A stretch of DNA of 64,000 bases, taken from contig NZ_JAPPRA010000001.1 of the NCBI RefSeq assembly GCF_026672375.1, forward strand, positions 496,001-560,000. Direction: 5' to 3'. The translations under genes and the position numbers were made by a program. This document shows, piece after piece, positions 41,908-64,000 of this stretch (the stretch's first letter is position 1; each line of letters opens with the position of its first letter). The notes under the pieces are model-generated. The model worked only from the letters and a program-made list of their open reading frames with translations. It did no database searches and was not told where the DNA came from. This stretch comes from Caulobacter sp. SL161. Lineage in GTDB: Bacteria > Pseudomonadota > Alphaproteobacteria > Caulobacterales > Caulobacteraceae.

Positions 41908-42594
41908 TCAGGGCTGCAGCCGATAGCCGCCCATCTCGGTGATCAAGATCCGCGCTACGGTGGGATCAGGCTCAATCTTCTGACGCAGGCGATAGACGTG
42001 GGTTTCCAGCGTGTGGGTGGTGACCCCGGCGTTGTAGCCCCAGACCTCGGTCAGCAGTTCCTCGCGCGACACAGGCTTGGAGCCGGCGCGGTAGAGGTAC
42101 TTGAGGATATTGGTTTCCTTTTCGGTCAGCCGCACCTTCTTCTGCTTCTCATCGACCAGGAGCTTGGCCGACGGGCGGAATTCGTAGGGGCCGATCCGGA
42201 AGAGCGCGTCTTCCGACGCCTCGTAGCTGCGCAGCTGGGCGCGGATGCGGGCCAGCAGCACGCCGAAGCGGAACGGCTTGGTCACATAGTCGTTGGCGCC
42301 GGATTCAAGACCCAGGATCGTGTCACTGTCGCTGGCGGCCGCCGTCAGCATGATCACCGGCGCGGTGACGCCGTTCTTGCGCATCAGGCGGCAGGCCTCG
42401 CGGCCGTCCATGTCGGGCAGATCAACGTCAAGCAGGATCAGGTCGGGTTTGAGCTCGCGCGACAGCTTCACGCCCTCACCCGCGCTCGAGGCCTCGTTGA
42501 CCGCGAACTCTTCATGCAGGGCCAACTGTTCCGCCAGCGCGCCGCGCAGGTCGTCATCGTCGTCGATCAGAAGAAGCGTCTTGCGTTGCGCCAT
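41908..42594 (-). CDS. cenR: essential envelope response regulator CenR
   Basis: OmpR-class two-component regulator. 228 aa from ATG 42594 (42606 also possible). Receiver domain: acidic pocket IDDDDD, phospho-Asp56 in LILLDVDLPD, Lys106 in YVTKPF. C-terminal winged helix with LTEKETNILKYLYRAG and THTLETHVYRLRQKIE. I name it cenR because the gene order (two genes before yggS, ahead of ntrZ and leuS near parB) matches the C. crescentus location of CenR, the essential partner of CenK that controls envelope integrity. Naming is thus by synteny plus family. Confidence 0.85.
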   Translation of the reverse strand: MAQRKTLLLIDDDDDLRGALAEQLALHEEFAVNEASSAGEGVKLSRELKPDLILLDVDLPDMDGREACRLMRKNGVTAPVIMLTAAASDSDTILGLESGANDYVTKPFRFGVLLARIRAQLRSYEASEDALFRIGPYEFRPSAKLLVDEKQKKVRLTEKETNILKYLYRAGSKPVSREELLTEVWGYNAGVTTHTLETHVYRLRQKIEPDPTVARILITEMGGYRLQP

Positions 42595-50190: not shown

Positions 50191-51105
50191 TCAGATCCCG
50201 CGCGTCAGTCGGTTGCAGAGGTCGTCGAGCTGCTCGAGCGTGGCGTAGGTGATGGTCAGCGTGCCGGTAGACCCGCGATGGTCGATCGAGACATCCAGGC
50301 CCAAAACCGAGGACAGGTCAGACTCCAGCGCCTGGGTGTCGGTGTCCTTCACGCGTGGCGGGCGGCCGCCCTTACTCTTGCCCGGAGACGGGCTGGGCGC
50401 CTTACGGGCCAGGGCCTCGGTCTCGCGCACCGACAAGCCGCCCTCGATGATCTGCTTGGCGAGGGCCACCGGGTCAGCCGCTGCAGCGATGGCGCGGGCG
50501 TGGCCGGCCGTCAGCTCACCACTGACCAGGTACGATTGAACCTCATCCGGTAGGGCCAGCAAGCGCATGGTGTTGGCCACATGGCTGCGGCTTTTGCCGA
50601 TGGTCTGAGCGATGTTCTCCTGGGTGCGCTCGAACTTCTCCATCAGCACCTTGTAGGAGAGCGCTTCTTCCAGGACGTTCAGATCAGCGCGCTGGACGTT
50701 CTCGATGATGCCGATCTCCAGCACCGCCAGGTCGTCGAGCTCACGCACCATGATCGGCACGGTCTTGAGGCCCGCCCGCTGGGCTGCGCGCCAACGGCGC
50801 TCGCCGGCGACGATCTGGTACTCGCCAGCCGTATCCGGCGATGGCCGCACCAGGATCGGCTGCAGAACGCCCTTCTCACGGATCGAGTTTGACAGGTCCT
50901 CGAGGTCTTCCTCGCGGAAGGTCCGACGGGGCTGGTCGGGATTGCGCTGCAGGATCTCGATCGGCGCTTCACGGGAACCGCCAAGCTGCTCGCCCGGCGC
51001 CTGAGCCGGCGCGGCGTCGACCTCGCCCAGCAGGGCGGAAAGCCCTCGACCCAGACCACGACGCCCTTCGGACATACCGGGCTCTCCCACCACGACGGAC
51101 TCCAT
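50191..51105 (-). CDS. parB: chromosome-partitioning CTPase ParB
   Basis: Binds parS, slides along DNA as a CTP-gated clamp and stimulates ParA. 304 aa if begun at ATG 51105, which puts the GERRWR motif Arg at position 104 as in published C. crescentus numbering; ATG 51075 has a better GGGAGAG site and would give 294 aa. RRGLGRGLSALLG start, ParB/Srx CTP-binding domain (RNPDQPRR, ENVQRADLN), helix-turn-helix IAQTIGKSRSHVANTMRLL, basic linker GKSKGGRPPR and C-terminal dimer domain. Confidence 0.97.
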   Translation of the reverse strand: MESVVVGEPGMSEGRRGLGRGLSALLGEVDAAPAQAPGEQLGGSREAPIEILQRNPDQPRRTFREEDLEDLSNSIREKGVLQPILVRPSPDTAGEYQIVAGERRWRAAQRAGLKTVPIMVRELDDLAVLEIGIIENVQRADLNVLEEALSYKVLMEKFERTQENIAQTIGKSRSHVANTMRLLALPDEVQSYLVSGELTAGHARAIAAAADPVALAKQIIEGGLSVRETEALARKAPSPSPGKSKGGRPPRVKDTDTQALESDLSSVLGLDVSIDHRGSTGTLTITYATLEQLDDLCNRLTRGI

Positions 51106-51143
51106 CACAATCTCAGTCAAGCTACGGTTCTTGTTCTTTGGAC

Positions 51144-51947
51144 TTAGGCGGCCTTGGCCTGGCGATCGCGTTCGCGGCTGATCACCTCGCGCGCCAGCTT
51201 CAGATAGGCCTGGCTACCCGCGCATTTCAGGTCGTAGAGCAGCACGGGCTTGCCGAATGACGGCGCCTCGGAGACCCGAACATTCCGCGGGATGACCGCG
51301 TCATAGACCTTGTCGCCGAAGTGGGCGCGCACGTCCTTGGCAACCTGTTCCGACAAGCTGTTGCGGCGGTCGTACATGGTCAGCACAACCCCTTGGATCT
51401 CCAGCCGCGGATTGAGGCTGCCGCGCACGCGTTCGATCGTCCGCATCAGCTGGGTCAGGCCCTCCAGGGCGAAGAACTCACACTGCAGCGGCACGAACAC
51501 CGCATCGGCGGCCGTCATGGCGTTGACCGTCAGCACGTTCAGCGACGGCGGGCAGTCGATCAGCACATAGGTATAGGGGCCGTTGGCGCGGATCGCCTCA
51601 AGGGCGTCGCGCAAGCGGTAGGACCGGCGGGCGGTCTGACCCAGTTCGATCTCCACACCCGAGAGATCCGCATCGGCCGGTATGACGTCCAGGCCCGGCA
51701 ACTCGGTCTTCACGGCTGCGTCGACCACGGGGGCCTCGCCCATCAACACGTCATAGAGCGTGGTGCGCCGCTGGGTGCGGCCGATGCCCAACCCCGTGGA
51801 ACAGTTGCCCTGCGGATCGGCGTCGATCAGCAGTACGCGTTCGCCGCAAGCGGCCAGGGCCGTGCCCAGATTGATCGCGGTCGTGGTCTTCCCCACCCCG
51901 CCCTTCTGATTGGCGATGGCCAGTACGCGGAGAGGATTAGCGGACAC
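51144..51947 (-). CDS. parA: chromosome-partitioning ATPase ParA
   Basis: Non-specific DNA-binding ATPase whose gradient pulls the ParB-parS complex poleward. 267 aa, GTG start. Deviant Walker A QKGGVGKTTTAINLG, Walker B VLIDCPPSLN and the switch/DNA-binding region YDRRNSLSEQVAKDVR. Start overlaps the end of rsmG by 11 bp. parB follows 38 bp later. Confidence 0.97.
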   Translation of the reverse strand: MSANPLRVLAIANQKGGVGKTTTAINLGTALAACGERVLLIDADPQGNCSTGLGIGRTQRRTTLYDVLMGEAPVVDAAVKTELPGLDVIPADADLSGVEIELGQTARRSYRLRDALEAIRANGPYTYVLIDCPPSLNVLTVNAMTAADAVFVPLQCEFFALEGLTQLMRTIERVRGSLNPRLEIQGVVLTMYDRRNSLSEQVAKDVRAHFGDKVYDAVIPRNVRVSEAPSFGKPVLLYDLKCAGSQAYLKLAREVISRERDRQAKAA

Positions 51948-54529: not shown

Positions 54530-54545
54530 CGTTTCACGTGAAACA
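54530..54545. promoter_or_regulatory. parS site, mnmE-mnmG intergenic
   Basis: CGTTTCACGTGAAACA matches the palindromic parS consensus at 15 of 16 positions (only the first base differs). Together with the site at 54588 it forms the strongest pair, in the 170-bp gap between mnmE and mnmG. ParB nucleation here would load the origin region about 8 kb from Cori. Confidence 0.9.
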
Positions 54546-54587
54546 CCCCCACCGCAACTGTGGGCGCGCTGTGGACAATATGGGGGA

Positions 54588-54603
54588 TGTTCCACGTGAA
54601 ACA
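54588..54603. promoter_or_regulatory. parS site abutting the mnmE stop
   Basis: TGTTCCACGTGAAACA, 15 of 16 to consensus, ending directly at the mnmE stop codon and 42 bp from the preceding site (four helical turns), so both would lie on the same DNA face. Confidence 0.9.
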
Positions 54604-55944
54604 TCACTTGCCGATGCAGAAGGTCGAAAAGACCCGTCCTAGAACGTCCTCGGGATCGATGCGGCCGGAGATGCGCTCCAAGGCTCTTGCCGCCAGCCGC
54701 ACATCTTCAGCGGCCAACTCGACCTCCAGCCCGACATCCGACAGCGCGCGTTCCAGATAGGACCGCGCCTCTGACAGGCGCTCGGCATGTCTCAAACGCG
54801 TTGCGGCCGGGAATTCCGCGCCCGACAAGGCGTCCGCCACGTGAGACGCGAGCGCAGCGCGGAGGGCCTCGGGGCCCTCAGCAGACGTGCCTGCAATATG
54901 CAGAACAGTAAGCCCCTCCACCGCCCAGCGCTCCGCCACGTGCGCCAAGGCGTCGGCATCGGCGATATCCGTCTTGTTGAGGATCAGCCAGTCGCCACCG
55001 CGGATCGCTTCAGGCCGTGCGTCGGCTTGTTTCACGTGAAAACCATCGACGACCCAAAGACGAAGATCCGCCGCCTCGGCCCACGCCTTGGCCCGACGAA
55101 CACCCTCGGCCTCGATCACATCCGCAGTCTCGCGGATACCTGCCGTATCCGCGACCAGCACCTTGTAGCCCCCCAGCACCAGGGGGACCTCGATCACGTC
55201 ACGTGTAGTCCCGGCCACATCGGTCACGATCGCCGCGTCCCGCTCGGCGAGGCCATTGAGTAAGGTGCTCTTCCCGGCGTTTGGCGCACCAATGAGCGCA
55301 ATACGGAAGCCGTCCCGCACCCGCCGCCCCCGCGAAACGTCCGCAAGCGCCGCGTTCAGTTCCGCGCTGAGTTGGCGCAGTCCCGGACGGGCGCGCTCAG
55401 CGACTTCCTCGGGCAGGTCCTCATCAGGAAAGTCTACGGCCGCCTCCAGCATGGCCAAGGCCTGGACCAGCAGGTCGCGCCAGCGATCGTAGCGCTGGCT
55501 CAGGGCGCCGCCCACTTGGCCCAGGGCCTGACGCCTCTGAGCCTCGGTCTCGGCGTCGATCAGGTCGGCCACGCCCTCCGCCTGGGCAAGATCGAGCTTG
55601 CCGTTCTCGAACGCCCGCCGCGTGAACTCACCCGCCTCGGCCAGGCGAGCCCCAAGTTCCGACAGCGCCGCGAGCAACGCTTCCACCACGGCGCGGCCGC
55701 CGTGCACGTGAAACTCCACGCTATCTTCGCCGGTATAGCTGGCCGGCTTTTCGAAGCGCAGGACCAGCGCCTCGTCCAGGGCCACGCCATTGTGCTTCAG
55801 CGTCCGGACCGACGCCAAGCGGGGCGATGGCAGGCGACCGCAAAGCGCAGCGGCGATCTCCGACGACCGGGGACCGGATACGCGCACCACTGCAACGGCC
55901 GAGCGGCCGGCCGCCGTCGCCAGGGCGAAGATCGTGTCCGTCAT
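54604..55944 (-). CDS. mnmE: tRNA modification GTPase MnmE
   Basis: 446 aa from ATG 55944. N-terminal formyl-THF-binding domain ([22 protein letters not shown]), helical domain, inserted G domain with G1 [13 protein letters not shown]3 DTAGIRET and G4 NKTD, and the C-terminal CIGK with Cys443. Works with MnmG. A parS-like site (55028-55043) lies in the G domain and encodes part of GFHVKQA. Orthologues lead the mnmE-mnmG-rsmG-parA-parB order. Confidence 0.96.
55028..55043. promoter_or_regulatory. parS-like site inside mnmE
   Basis: TGTTTCACGTGAAAAC, 14 of 16 to consensus with a perfect left half. On the coding (minus) strand it reads as codons for FHVKQ. Confidence 0.75.
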
Positions 55945-60643: not shown

Positions 60644-61686
60644 CACGCGGAGACTCCTTCGCGGCACGGGCACTTGGACCAATCCGCGCCACACCGCCAG
60701 CCGCAGGCGGAAGACACCGTCCCCGGCGCCCTCCCCACTGAGTCTCGCACGGCCTTGGCGAGGCCGTCGATAAACTCTGGCGCTGTGCCCAGGGCCGATA
60801 CGCGCAGATAGGGCGTGGCGCCGACCTCTTCGGCCAGCTCGGCATATTCGTGATCCAGCTCAACCAGGGTCTCGACGTGTTCCGAGACAAAGGCGATCGG
60901 GGTGATCATCACCCCCTTGGCTTCGGCGCCGGCGCGGCGGATCTCGTCATCGGTCGACGGTCCGATCCACTTCAGCGGCCCGACCCGGCTCTGGTAACAG
61001 ACAGTCCATTCGATCTGCGACGGCAGATGCGCGGCGACGGCGGCGGCCGTGGCCTCGACCTGCTTCTGATAGGGGTCGCCGGCCAGGATCACCTTCTCCG
61101 GCAGACCATGGGCCGAGAACAGCAAGCGGATGTTCGTCGGCGAGCCGGCTTTCTCCCAGGACTCCCGGATCATCCGGGCGTGAGCTTCGATGAGCCCGCC
61201 TTCAGTGGGATAGCAGCCGACCGTCGTCTGCACACCCGAGCCCCTGTAGGTCTTCTTCCAGGCCTTCAGCGACGAGCCCGTCGTGGTGGTGGAAAACTGC
61301 GGATAGAGCGGCAGCAGCACCACCTGGTCGGGCGCGAAGGCCGCGACCTGGCGCGCCGTCTCGTCCGTCAACGGATGCCAGTAGCGCATGGCGATGAAGC
61401 ACTTGGCTTCGACGCCCGGCATGGCGACGGTCAAGGCGGCTTCCAGGGCCCGCGCCTGCTTTTCTGTTTCCGGCAGCAAGGGCGAGCCGCCGCCCATGAT
61501 CGCATAGTTGGCCTTGGCCGACTTCTCGCGCGTGGTCGAGATCAGCGCCGCCAGCGGATAGCGGATCAGCGCCGGTGCGCCGATGATCGCGGGATCGCGG
61601 AACAGGTTGAACAGAAACGGCCGAACCGCGTCCGGACCATCAGGCCCGCCGAGATTGAAGAGAACGACGGCGAGCTTCTGGGTCAT
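60643..61686 (-). CDS. hemH: ferrochelatase
   Basis: Inserts Fe2+ into protoporphyrin IX. 347 aa. VVLFNLGGPDGPDAVRPFLFNLF, metal-site His in FSAHGLPEKV, and the VCYQSRVGPLKWIGPST signature. A C-terminal tail of about 35 residues contains several Cys (CGWRCGADWSKCPC), reminiscent of [2Fe-2S]-binding tails in some ferrochelatases. Start overlaps the hemE stop (ATGA). Confidence 0.96.
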   Translation of the reverse strand: MTQKLAVVLFNLGGPDGPDAVRPFLFNLFRDPAIIGAPALIRYPLAALISTTREKSAKANYAIMGGGSPLLPETEKQARALEAALTVAMPGVEAKCFIAMRYWHPLTDETARQVAAFAPDQVVLLPLYPQFSTTTTGSSLKAWKKTYRGSGVQTTVGCYPTEGGLIEAHARMIRESWEKAGSPTNIRLLFSAHGLPEKVILAGDPYQKQVEATAAAVAAHLPSQIEWTVCYQSRVGPLKWIGPSTDDEIRRAGAEAKGVMITPIAFVSEHVETLVELDHEYAELAEEVGATPYLRVSALGTAPEFIDGLAKAVRDSVGRAPGTVSSACGWRCGADWSKCPCREGVSA

Positions 61687-62738
61687 TGGCCAACCTTCTG
61701 ACCAGTCACGCGTTCGAGCACAGCCTCGACATGGGCGATCGGCGTGTCAGGCAGGATGCCGTGACCCAGGTTGAAGATATAGGGACCCTGGTTCCACTGC
61801 TCGAGCATCTCATCGACGCGCTTCAACAGCGCATCGCCGCCGGCGCGGAGCAACAGCGGATCGAGCGCGCCCTGAATGGTCTTGGTCTTCTGGATCGTCT
61901 GGCCAAGCTTGGCCGAGGCCGAGGTGTCCAGCGCCACGCCCTGCACGGGGGTTCTGGTAGCGTAGTCCTCGACCAGGGTCCCGGCCCCGCGCGGGAAACC
62001 AATGACCGGCACGGTGACGCCCCGCGCACGCAAGCCCTCGATGATCCGAATGTGCGGCTGGGTGACCAGCCGTTCGAACAACGGCTCCGACAGGCCCTCG
62101 GCCCAGCTCTCGAACAGCTTCAGCGCCTGAGCGCCGGCGTCAACCTGCATGGCCAGATAGTCGATCGTCGCATCGACCAGAACCTGGATCAGAGCGTCCA
62201 GCGTCTCAGCGTTCTGATACGCGAAGGTCCGCGCGCCGCTGCGGTCGCTGGAGCCCTTCTCGATCATGTAGGTCGCCACGGTCCAGGGCGCGCCGGCGAA
62301 GCCGATCAGGGCCTTCTCCGGATCAAGCGCCGAACGAACCCGGGTCAGCGTCTCCCCGACCAGCGAAAGGGCCTTACCCGCCTCTCCGGCCTTCTCGGCC
62401 ATGGACTCCACGGACGGCATGTCGCCGAGCTTGGGGCCCTCGCCGGCTTCGAACCAGACCTTCTGTCCCAGAGCGCCCGGGATCAGCAGGATGTCCGCAA
62501 AGACGATCGAGGCGTCGAAGGGAAACCGCCGCATAGGCTGCAGCGTAACTTCCGCCGCCTTCTCGGGATCAAAGCAGAAGCTGATGAAGTCCGGCGCCGT
62601 GGCGCGCACCGCGCGATACTCCGGCAGATACCGGCCCGCCTGGCGCATGAACCACACCGGAGGGTTCGCATGCGACTGGCCTTCCAGCGCGGAGAGAAAC
62701 TTCGGTGTCTGCTTTAGGATGGGAGAGGAAGACGTCAT
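61683..62738 (-). CDS. hemE: uroporphyrinogen decarboxylase
   Basis: Makes coproporphyrinogen III. 351 aa from ATG 62738 (MTSSSPILKQTP). PVWFMRQAGRYLPEYR motif with substrate-binding Arg, FCFDPEKAAEVTLQP, GFAGAPWTVATYM, and NLGHGILPDTPIAHV. First gene of hemE-hemH-hemJ-rraB-like, transcribed away from Cori. No Shine-Dalgarno precedes the ATG; two hairpins occupy the space. In C. crescentus, hemE promoters are intertwined with Cori. Confidence 0.97.
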   Translation of the reverse strand: MTSSSPILKQTPKFLSALEGQSHANPPVWFMRQAGRYLPEYRAVRATAPDFISFCFDPEKAAEVTLQPMRRFPFDASIVFADILLIPGALGQKVWFEAGEGPKLGDMPSVESMAEKAGEAGKALSLVGETLTRVRSALDPEKALIGFAGAPWTVATYMIEKGSSDRSGARTFAYQNAETLDALIQVLVDATIDYLAMQVDAGAQALKLFESWAEGLSEPLFERLVTQPHIRIIEGLRARGVTVPVIGFPRGAGTLVEDYATRTPVQGVALDTSASAKLGQTIQKTKTIQGALDPLLLRAGGDALLKRVDEMLEQWNQGPYIFNLGHGILPDTPIAHVEAVLERVTGQKVGQ

Positions 62739-62741
62739 GGA

Positions 62742-62779
62742 CCGGGTTAAAGCCCGGCGCGGGCTTCGGCTCAAGCCCG
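62742..62779 (-). promoter_or_regulatory. two hairpins in the hemE leader
   Basis: CCGGG/CCCGG (62742-62757) ends 3 nt before the hemE ATG, and CGGGCTT/AAGCCCG (62760-62779) lies next to it. Complementary CCGGGC/GCCCGG arms also allow alternative pairing between the two. They occupy the position of a ribosome site. Confidence 0.45.
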
Positions 62780-62787
62780 GACGTCCC

Positions 62788-62802
62788 TTAAGATCTTTCT
62801 AA
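62788..62802. promoter_or_regulatory. CtrA box 1 (hemE side)
   Basis: TTAA-GATCTTT-CTAA: one base off the TTAA-N7-TTAA consensus in the second half-site. It lies in the A+T-rich segment 50-64 bp upstream of hemE, so bound CtrA could affect both strand opening and hemE transcription. Confidence 0.75.
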
Positions 62803-62808
62803 CATATC

Positions 62809-62823
62809 TTAATAAGAAATTAA
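62809..62823. promoter_or_regulatory. CtrA box 2
   Basis: Perfect TTAA-TAAGAAA-TTAA, 6 bp from box 1. The two adjacent sites probably bind CtrA cooperatively over the unwinding region. Confidence 0.92.
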
Positions 62824-62930
62824 GATTGAAGGAGGGAGCGGAAGGGCAACTGCAAAGTGGGGAAAACGCCTGTGAGGCGAGTGACTCGCACAGCCCGTCC
62901 CGGCTTTCCCCCAGGCCTTCCCACATGGGG

Positions 62931-62945
62931 TTAACGATCTGTTAA
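62931..62945. promoter_or_regulatory. CtrA box 3
   Basis: Perfect TTAA-CGATCTG-TTAA in the centre of Cori. A CCCACA string just upstream (62921) could be a weak DnaA contact, but it is a poor match. Confidence 0.92.
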
Positions 62946-62978
62946 TCATGGGGATGGATGGACAGCGCCTTGAACACC

Positions 62979-62993
62979 TTAATGAATTCTTAA
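62979..62993. promoter_or_regulatory. CtrA box 4
   Basis: Perfect TTAA-TGAATTC-TTAA, 33 bp beyond box 3. Confidence 0.92.
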
Positions 62994-63184
62994 CGTCCTG
63001 AGACGCGACAGCGACCTCTGACCGGACTCGTTCCGCGTCTTTGGACAATCGGGATTCAGACTTCGGGGGATGCGGCGCAGGCTTGGGGATGATAGGCGAG
63101 CAATGCGACCGTTGATCACAGCGGCGCCGTGTCACGACGCTCCAGGGGCCGTTCGGCGCCCGAGCGTCCCCAGAGGCAGGGCAA

Positions 63185-64000
63185 GTGGTTAAGCAACCGT
63201 TAACGGATGATCCACAGGAGAGTCTGGCGCAGGGCGAGAGCGAAAGGCTGCCGCCACGCTTCGCCACCTACTTCCATATACACCTGGTTTCAGACTCCAC
63301 CGGCGAGACGCTGAATGCGATGGCGCGGGCGGTCTGCGCGCGGTTCACCGACATCCTGCCGATCGAGCACATCTATGCGCTGGTGCGGTCGACCCGGCAG
63401 TTGGATCGCGCTCTGGAAGAGATCGCCGGTGCGCCGGGTGTGGTGATGCACACGATCGTTGACCCCGGCCTTCGCGCTGCGCTCGAGGAAGGCTGCCGCA
63501 AGCTGGAAATGCCGTGCATCGCCGCGCTGGATCCGGTGATCAGCGCCATGTCCCGTTATCTGGGCGCGCGGATCTCGACCCGGGTCGGCGCCCAGCACGC
63601 CCTGACCAATGACTATTTCGACCGCATCGAGGCGCTGGACTACGCCATCGCCCACGATGACGGCCAGGGCGGACAGGATCTGACCCAGGCCGACGTCATT
63701 CTGGTGGGCGTGTCACGGACCTCCAAGACTCCCACCTGCATCTATCTGGCGCATCGAGGCGTGCGCGCCGCCAATGTGCCGCTGGTCCCGGGCCGCCCGC
63801 CGCCTCCTGAGCTGTTCGAGCTGAAGAACACCTTGATCGTCGGCCTGATCACCTCGCCGGATCGGTTGATCCAGATCCGTCGCAATCGCCTGCTCTCTCT
63901 GAAAGAGAACCGCGAGAGCGACTATGTCGACGCCGACGCGGTGCGTCAGGAGATCATCGCTGCGCGCCGCCTGTTCGAGCGCCAGAACTGGCCGGTCATC
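63185..64000 (+). CDS. PEP-synthase/PPDK regulatory kinase-pyrophosphorylase (DUF299), partial
   Basis: Begins at GTG 63185 (VVKQPLTDDPQE), preceded by GAGGCAGGG, and runs off the right edge after 272 codons. The domain starts at HIHLVSDSTGETLNAMARA. The ADP-binding P-loop GVSRTSKTPTCIYLAHRG and DYFDRIEALDYAIAHDDG are visible. This family phosphorylates and dephosphorylates PEP synthase or pyruvate-phosphate dikinase using ADP. It corresponds to the first gene right of Cori in C. crescentus. About 25 residues precede the conserved core, and they overlap CtrA box 5 and a DnaA box. Confidence 0.92.
   Translation, partial: MVKQPLTDDPQESLAQGESERLPPRFATYFHIHLVSDSTGETLNAMARAVCARFTDILPIEHIYALVRSTRQLDRALEEIAGAPGVVMHTIVDPGLRAALEEGCRKLEMPCIAALDPVISAMSRYLGARISTRVGAQHALTNDYFDRIEALDYAIAHDDGQGGQDLTQADVILVGVSRTSKTPTCIYLAHRGVRAANVPLVPGRPPPPELFELKNTLIVGLITSPDRLIQIRRNRLLSLKENRESDYVDADAVRQEIIAARRLFERQNWPVI
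63189..63203. promoter_or_regulatory. CtrA box 5, inside the first codons of the downstream gene
   Basis: Perfect TTAA-GCAACCG-TTAA occupying codons 2-7 of the regulator gene (VKQPLT). Bound CtrA could block both origin function and transcription entering this gene. Confidence 0.9.
63208..63216 (+). promoter_or_regulatory. DnaA box
   Basis: TGATCCACA, 8 of 9 to the TTATCCACA consensus, 5 bp from CtrA box 5. This form corresponds to the moderate-affinity DnaA sites described for Cori. Close spacing suggests direct competition between DnaA and CtrA. Confidence 0.75.

Follow-up and report, generated by a model that had tools for sequence, protein, structure and literature searches.

The replication origin of Caulobacter crescentus, Cori, was experimentally defined in the interval between hemE and a DUF299/COG1806 gene, as the available part of PMC1914354 states. 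Published accounts give it two G-boxes and five W-boxes for DnaA. Its IHF site is given as TAACGCTCTGTT, overlapping CtrA box c, in the accessible sections of PMC4285127. According to the portion of the review PMC4468827 at hand, parS lies within 8 kb of Cori and four of the five CtrA sites are conserved among freshwater Caulobacter. A 182-nt non-coding RNA from within Cori has been reported as CCNA_R0094 (PMC4287350) and studied as CcnA (excerpts of PMC8959179). Here we describe a segment of the same kind in another Caulobacter strain. Its anatomy was checked against PMC1914354, PMC4468827, PMC4285127 and PMC8959179, each available in part. By window we mean the whole 64 kb stretch analyzed, which covers 496001-560000 on a contig of 3.95 Mb; the genome has 4,015,769 bases in 2 contigs.

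Anatomy and chromosomal setting of the segment

The features of the segment follow in window coordinates; conservation counts refer to 71 aligned origins of the genus.

61683-62738, minus strand: hemE, left flank; open reading frame from the ATG at 62738; TIGR01464, 400.7 bits
62787-62827, no strand: A+T-rich segment, candidate unwinding element; 80% A+T over 41 bp
62788-62802, no strand: CtrA box a, one mismatch (TTAAGATCTTTCTAA), by motif scan; one mismatch in 10/71
62809-62823, no strand: CtrA box b, perfect, by motif scan; perfect in 53/71, one mismatch in 4/71
62858-62863, minus strand: DnaA W-box, TCCCCA on that strand; motif from the available part of PMC4285127
62931-62945, no strand: CtrA box c, perfect, by motif scan, holding the IHF-like site; perfect in 20/71, one mismatch in 1/71
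62932-62943, within box c: IHF-like site TAACGATCTGTT; 11 of 12 bases as in the C. crescentus site
62949-62954, minus strand: DnaA W-box, motif match
62979-62993, no strand: CtrA box d, perfect, by motif scan, holding the predicted ccnA 3' end; perfect in 38/71, one mismatch in 15/71
62984-63165, minus strand: predicted ccnA (CCNA_R0094) ncRNA gene, 182 nt; start and length transferred through genome G072
63084-63089, minus strand: DnaA W-box, best-kept of the four, giving a CCCC of predicted CcnA; TGGGGA in 61/71 at this column
63111-63121, plus strand: conserved element GTTGATCACAG; pattern conserved across genus origins
63167-63172, plus strand: DnaA W-box; TCCCCA in 51/71 at this column
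63185-64000, plus strand: DUF299/PpsR-like gene, right flank, running off the window; NF003742, 278.3 bits
63189-63203, no strand: CtrA box e, perfect, by motif scan; perfect in 59/71, one mismatch in 9/71
63208-63216, plus strand: DnaA G-box TGATCCACA, beside box e; exact match to the sequence in the available part of PMC4285127

A first-pass annotation of this DNA had claimed four perfect TTAA-N7-TTAA sites and one single-base variant within 416 bp, with no other complete CtrA box in the 64 kb. The motif scan agrees on both counts: the cluster spans 62788-63203, and the sole outsider, at 2390, carries one mismatch. In fact, the window holds six sites with at most one mismatch, five of them in the cluster, against 0.65 expected and a maximum of four in 100 shuffles. 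Genome-wide there are 17 perfect sites, and Cori accounts for four. A Poisson estimate for four perfect sites in 395 bp is about 3e-13, and 0/400 first-order Markov resamples of the Cori intergenic sequence reached four perfect boxes. The genome also encodes CtrA itself (NF045991, 410.2 bits; model cut-off 350), and the one-mismatch box a is apparently among the five published CtrA sites.

The remaining elements claimed by that annotation are also in place. The flanking genes are identified by the two family models listed above, the DnaA box is the exact published C. crescentus G-box, and no 40-mer in the window is richer in A+T than the one at 62788 (82.5%). A second G-box would need two mismatches here, for example at a site overlapping box c, and a fifth W-box would likewise have to be an imperfect one. 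The pattern GTTNANCACAG, to which the conserved element belongs, occurs in 45/71 origins, and all 45 have a TGGGGA 27 bp away from it. Between 62740 and 63270 there are four GANTC sites (62883, 63025, 63053 and 63220), GANTC being the CcrM motif. The right-flank gene encodes a DUF299-type regulator of pyruvate phosphate dikinase/PEP synthase; it falls short of the cut-off set for the narrower PpsR model NF049928. Its start as called (GTG 63185) would place box e and the G-box in its coding sequence; as NF003742 aligns only from residue 28 onward, the gene may in truth start downstream of 63185.

On the contig the origin is set at 558,788-559,203. The parS-like sites, rsmG, mnmG, mnmE, rho and the hem genes are thereby origin-proximal, and the origin anchors both window and contig; the first-pass annotation wrote that Cori fixes the chromosomal context of the whole window. 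The palindrome we scanned for, which we take to be parS, occurs 7.7-8.3 kb from the origin:

54531-55042, no strand: three parS-like palindromes, the one at 54531 exact, those at 54589 and 55029 with one mismatch each

Adjoining rsmG, mnmG and mnmE are the open reading frames 50191-51120 and 51144-51947, which to our eyes look like ParB and ParA. An OmpR-type response regulator DNA-binding domain lies at 41917-42141 on the minus strand (L228).

GC skew was measured on 60 samples of 20 kb around the chromosome. It is positive in 25/30 samples from 560 kb to 2.53 Mb, and in only 1/13 below 560 kb and 3/17 above 2.53 Mb. The best half-chromosome split falls at 580 kb, with 560 kb nearly equal, and Cori is at 559 kb. 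Within 480-640 kb the cumulative minima are at 589 kb (G-C) and 576 kb (keto), 30 and 17 kb to the right of Cori. Of the skew switch proposed as a check, a change of sign at about 560-580 kb is seen, but the local minima do not coincide with Cori. The skew supports an origin in the region without pinpointing the base. With two reservations, the displaced skew minimum and a comparison with NA1000 that goes through published features and relatives, neither outcome that the first-pass annotation had named as refuting was encountered.

The displaced minimum is what would favor a decayed or duplicate copy of the origin, the working one being elsewhere. Yet a Cori DNA query finds a single match in its own genome (E <= 0.001), the four perfect boxes have been kept, and nowhere else do the 17 perfect sites cluster comparably, the next closest grouping being a pair 182 bp apart. 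We regard such a copy as exceedingly improbable. Only slightly more credible, and still very unlikely, is that the boxes mainly form a CtrA-regulated promoter region for hemE, ccnA and the DUF299 gene that merely happens to be near the origin. The predicted ccnA start is indeed 23 nt from box e, and the other 13 perfect boxes of the genome are scattered, as expected of promoter sites. However, experiments in C. crescentus defined this very interval as the origin (PMC1914354, part available), the parS linkage and the skew count against a mere promoter region, and the CtrA boxes are interleaved with DnaA boxes and the A+T-rich segment.

The sites, their spacing, the flanks, their conservation, the parS linkage and the skew at Cori are seen directly in this strain. 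Because the flanks, the number and spacing of the boxes, the DnaA and IHF-like sites, the A+T-rich segment, the parS-like sites and the genome-scale skew all match the described Cori, we read the segment as almost certainly the chromosomal replication origin, orthologous to the experimentally known Cori of C. crescentus; the first-pass annotation had called it the Caulobacter origin on a subset of these features.

Protein binding and function at this Cori we infer from C. crescentus. By analogy, DnaA would load at the G-box and the weak W-boxes and, near hemE, open the A+T-rich segment. In swarmer cells DnaA would be kept out by phosphorylated CtrA bound at the TTAA-N7-TTAA boxes; once CtrA is cleared at the swarmer-to-stalked transition, one initiation would be allowed. 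IHF would work at box c. CtrA on box e would probably also drive the minus-strand ncRNA ccnA.

The ncRNA gene ccnA within Cori

The start site of ccnA is given as 182, minus strand, in the accessible part of a table in PMC5988900. We carried it over through G072, whose contig starts at the base equivalent to window 62984. The gene is thus predicted at complement(62984..63165), provided that the NA1000 numbering starts at the same base as G072. What is published of CcnA in the excerpts of PMC8959179 is a +1 of G, a CtrA box 23 bp upstream and a CtrA box at the very end. The transferred gene matches these statements: its +1 is G, box e lies 23 nt upstream and box d is at its 3' end. A plus-strand alternative at 63016-63197, whose spacing also fits boxes d and e, is ruled out by the published minus-strand start at 182 (same part of PMC5988900).

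As a weak test, the minus-strand fold energy is -59.8, -55.9, -75.8 and -67.0 kcal/mol in G000, G069, G072 and G070; that of the plus strand is about -72, and the value published for CcnA, -56.37 in the source portion available, comes from another program. Searching Rfam with ccnA gave a sole match, at chance level. Over an alignment of 20 close genomes, 51/59 columns between 27 and 85 are invariant; a DnaA W-box falls within this conserved stretch, where covariation is almost absent. In fact, the RNAalifold consensus of the 20 sequences has a compensatory change in 2/27 pairs, most pairs hardly varying, and its covariation term is -0.33 of -22.86 kcal/mol. Because the W-box inside ccnA is conserved, the GTTNANCACAG element is conserved and covariation is almost absent, conservation of ccnA cannot be told apart from conservation of protein sites in these data. 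Conservation of ccnA alone is therefore no evidence for RNA function.

The CCCC from the W-box at 63084 falls in a hairpin loop in the minimum-energy folds of 4/4 genomes, and on the strength of this placement it may correspond to the published Loop A of CcnA. Counter to this, the RNAalifold consensus pairs the four CCCC bases, and the RNA has other CCCC stretches.

CtrA boxes at origins across the genus

We compared 75 genomes of the genus, 71 of which gave a usable hemE-DUF299 interval. Left out were G008 (hemE and DUF299 apart), G043 and G060 (neither flank) and G054 (no DUF299 match); G021, cut by a contig end, and the incomplete G067 were kept. A 591-base Cori query matches 55/75 genomes at E <= 0.001; 24 of the 55 cover at least 480/591 bases, and the other 31 match in part, mostly at the box e end. 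The nearest genome, G069, is 98% identical across the full query. In the plasmid collection the Cori segment has no match.

Some loci stand apart from the 71. In G008, about 290 kb separate hemE from DUF299 (across contig ends, if circular; loci C1:95500-96900, L213, and 4380700-4382150, L214). CtrA boxes, one perfect and two with one mismatch, and parS sites stay with hemE; on the DUF299 side, the stretch read has no CtrA box with at most one mismatch. A scan of named loci covered 50/80 of them, over up to 900 bases upstream of hemE. In it, L106, labelled Bordetella sp. and possibly a mislabelled bin, has a hemE 65% identical to that of the window and carries the same one-mismatch DnaA-like site, at an identical offset, as the Brevundimonas loci L108 and L131.

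Among the window's 20 closest genomes, boxes c, d and e are perfect in 20/20, and box b is perfect in 16 and has one mismatch in 4. The statement that four of five sites are conserved is thus true for these 20 genomes and false for the whole genus as sampled. In fact, 10/71 genomes have no perfect CtrA box at Cori. The tenth is the incomplete G067, and the other nine (G001, G002, G003, G006, G009, G029, G034, G071 and G074) form one clade with a support of 1.0 (FastTree, origin alignment).

In this box-poor clade box e reads TAAA-N7-TTAA in 9/9 genomes, the place of box b has no site with at most one mismatch in 9/9, and spacers relaxed to N5 through N9 bring up no perfect box at the origin. 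Three one-mismatch CtrA sites remain, a number reached in at most 1/400 resamples for either of the two genomes so treated, G003 and G006. It is for this excess over chance that we dropped the description of these origins as CtrA-free in favor of weakened. CtrA itself is present in 9/9 genomes of the clade, at 97-98% identity; it is not found at E <= 1e-90 in 5/75 genomes overall (G021, G036, G060, G067 and G070), each at most 86% complete. Of five parS-like sites in G003, four are 4.3-8.4 kb away from the origin locus.

The comparison suggests that one Caulobacter branch lost the consensus form of the CtrA sites at its origin. Was the loss confined to Cori? By raw count, perfect boxes elsewhere in the genome number 9.0 in the nine clade genomes versus 10.0 in the 62 others (P = 0.17). 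Since genomes of the clade are large, we also compared per Mb (1.65 versus 2.40, P = 7e-5) and with the 16 genomes outside the clade that reach 5.0 Mb or more (9.0 versus 12.0, P = 0.0014), the genomes in both comparisons being related and not independent. Confinement to Cori is therefore not supported, the clade having fewer perfect boxes elsewhere both per Mb and at equal size; for this latter reason a clade-wide change in CtrA motif use is possible. The likeliest reading of these sequences is weaker CtrA binding at the origin, through a cis change at Cori or a broader drift of CtrA sites. Binding is probably not abolished, as one-mismatch box a appears among the five published sites. Among the titles and abstracts listed in a literature search, none gave a description of a clade-wise loss of CtrA boxes at Cori, subscription papers such as Shaheen 2009 being outside that coverage.

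Taken together, we envision CtrA control of the origin as an elaboration specific to a clade and open to loss in cis, with the W-box at 63084 doubling as the seed CCCC of CcnA. The nine-genome clade, which keeps the place of the origin, its DnaA sites and CtrA, may replicate under weak CtrA gating; the CCCC of CcnA proposed to seed mRNA pairing may be this W-box, six bases then serving both replication and RNA regulation. The joint proposal is a tentative one that we think will rather fail than hold, its odds being lowered by the perfect boxes elsewhere, which are also fewer in the clade than in relatives of equal size. Natural species could nevertheless answer whether CtrA binding at Cori is needed, a question usually asked with engineered strains. 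The Cori locus itself is ordinary, and this comparative lead is of more note.

Comparison with described origins

Other Caulobacter origins occupy the same hemE-DUF299 position, and most have boxes e, b and d in perfect form (59, 53 and 38 of 71). They differ in that box c is perfect in only 20/71 and box a is found, with one mismatch, in only 10/71.

The closest described system is the Cori of C. crescentus NA1000/CB15. The two have in common the hemE and DUF299 flanks, five CtrA sites, a G-box and W-boxes, an IHF site at box c, an A+T-rich segment, parS about 8 kb away and ccnA inside, a likeness drawn from published features and the genomes of relatives. They differ in the number of exact DnaA sites, one G-box here versus two and four W-boxes (TCCCCA/TGGGGA) versus five, and in one base of the box c spacer and IHF site, which reads TAACGATCTGTT here and TAACGCTCTGTT in C. 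crescentus.

Origins outside Caulobacter can be set beside it by description, as found in the available part of PMC1914354. Those of Rickettsia and the Anaplasmataceae are adjacent to hemE and have CtrA, DnaA and IHF sites, like the Caulobacter Cori; Rickettsia also shares the COG1806 flank, whereas the Anaplasmataceae have a different flanking gene. The origin described here is thus a Caulobacter Cori of an already known kind, in a close relative of C. crescentus, and what it adds to the known Cori is the mapping of ccnA in the window and the genus-wide comparison of the boxes.
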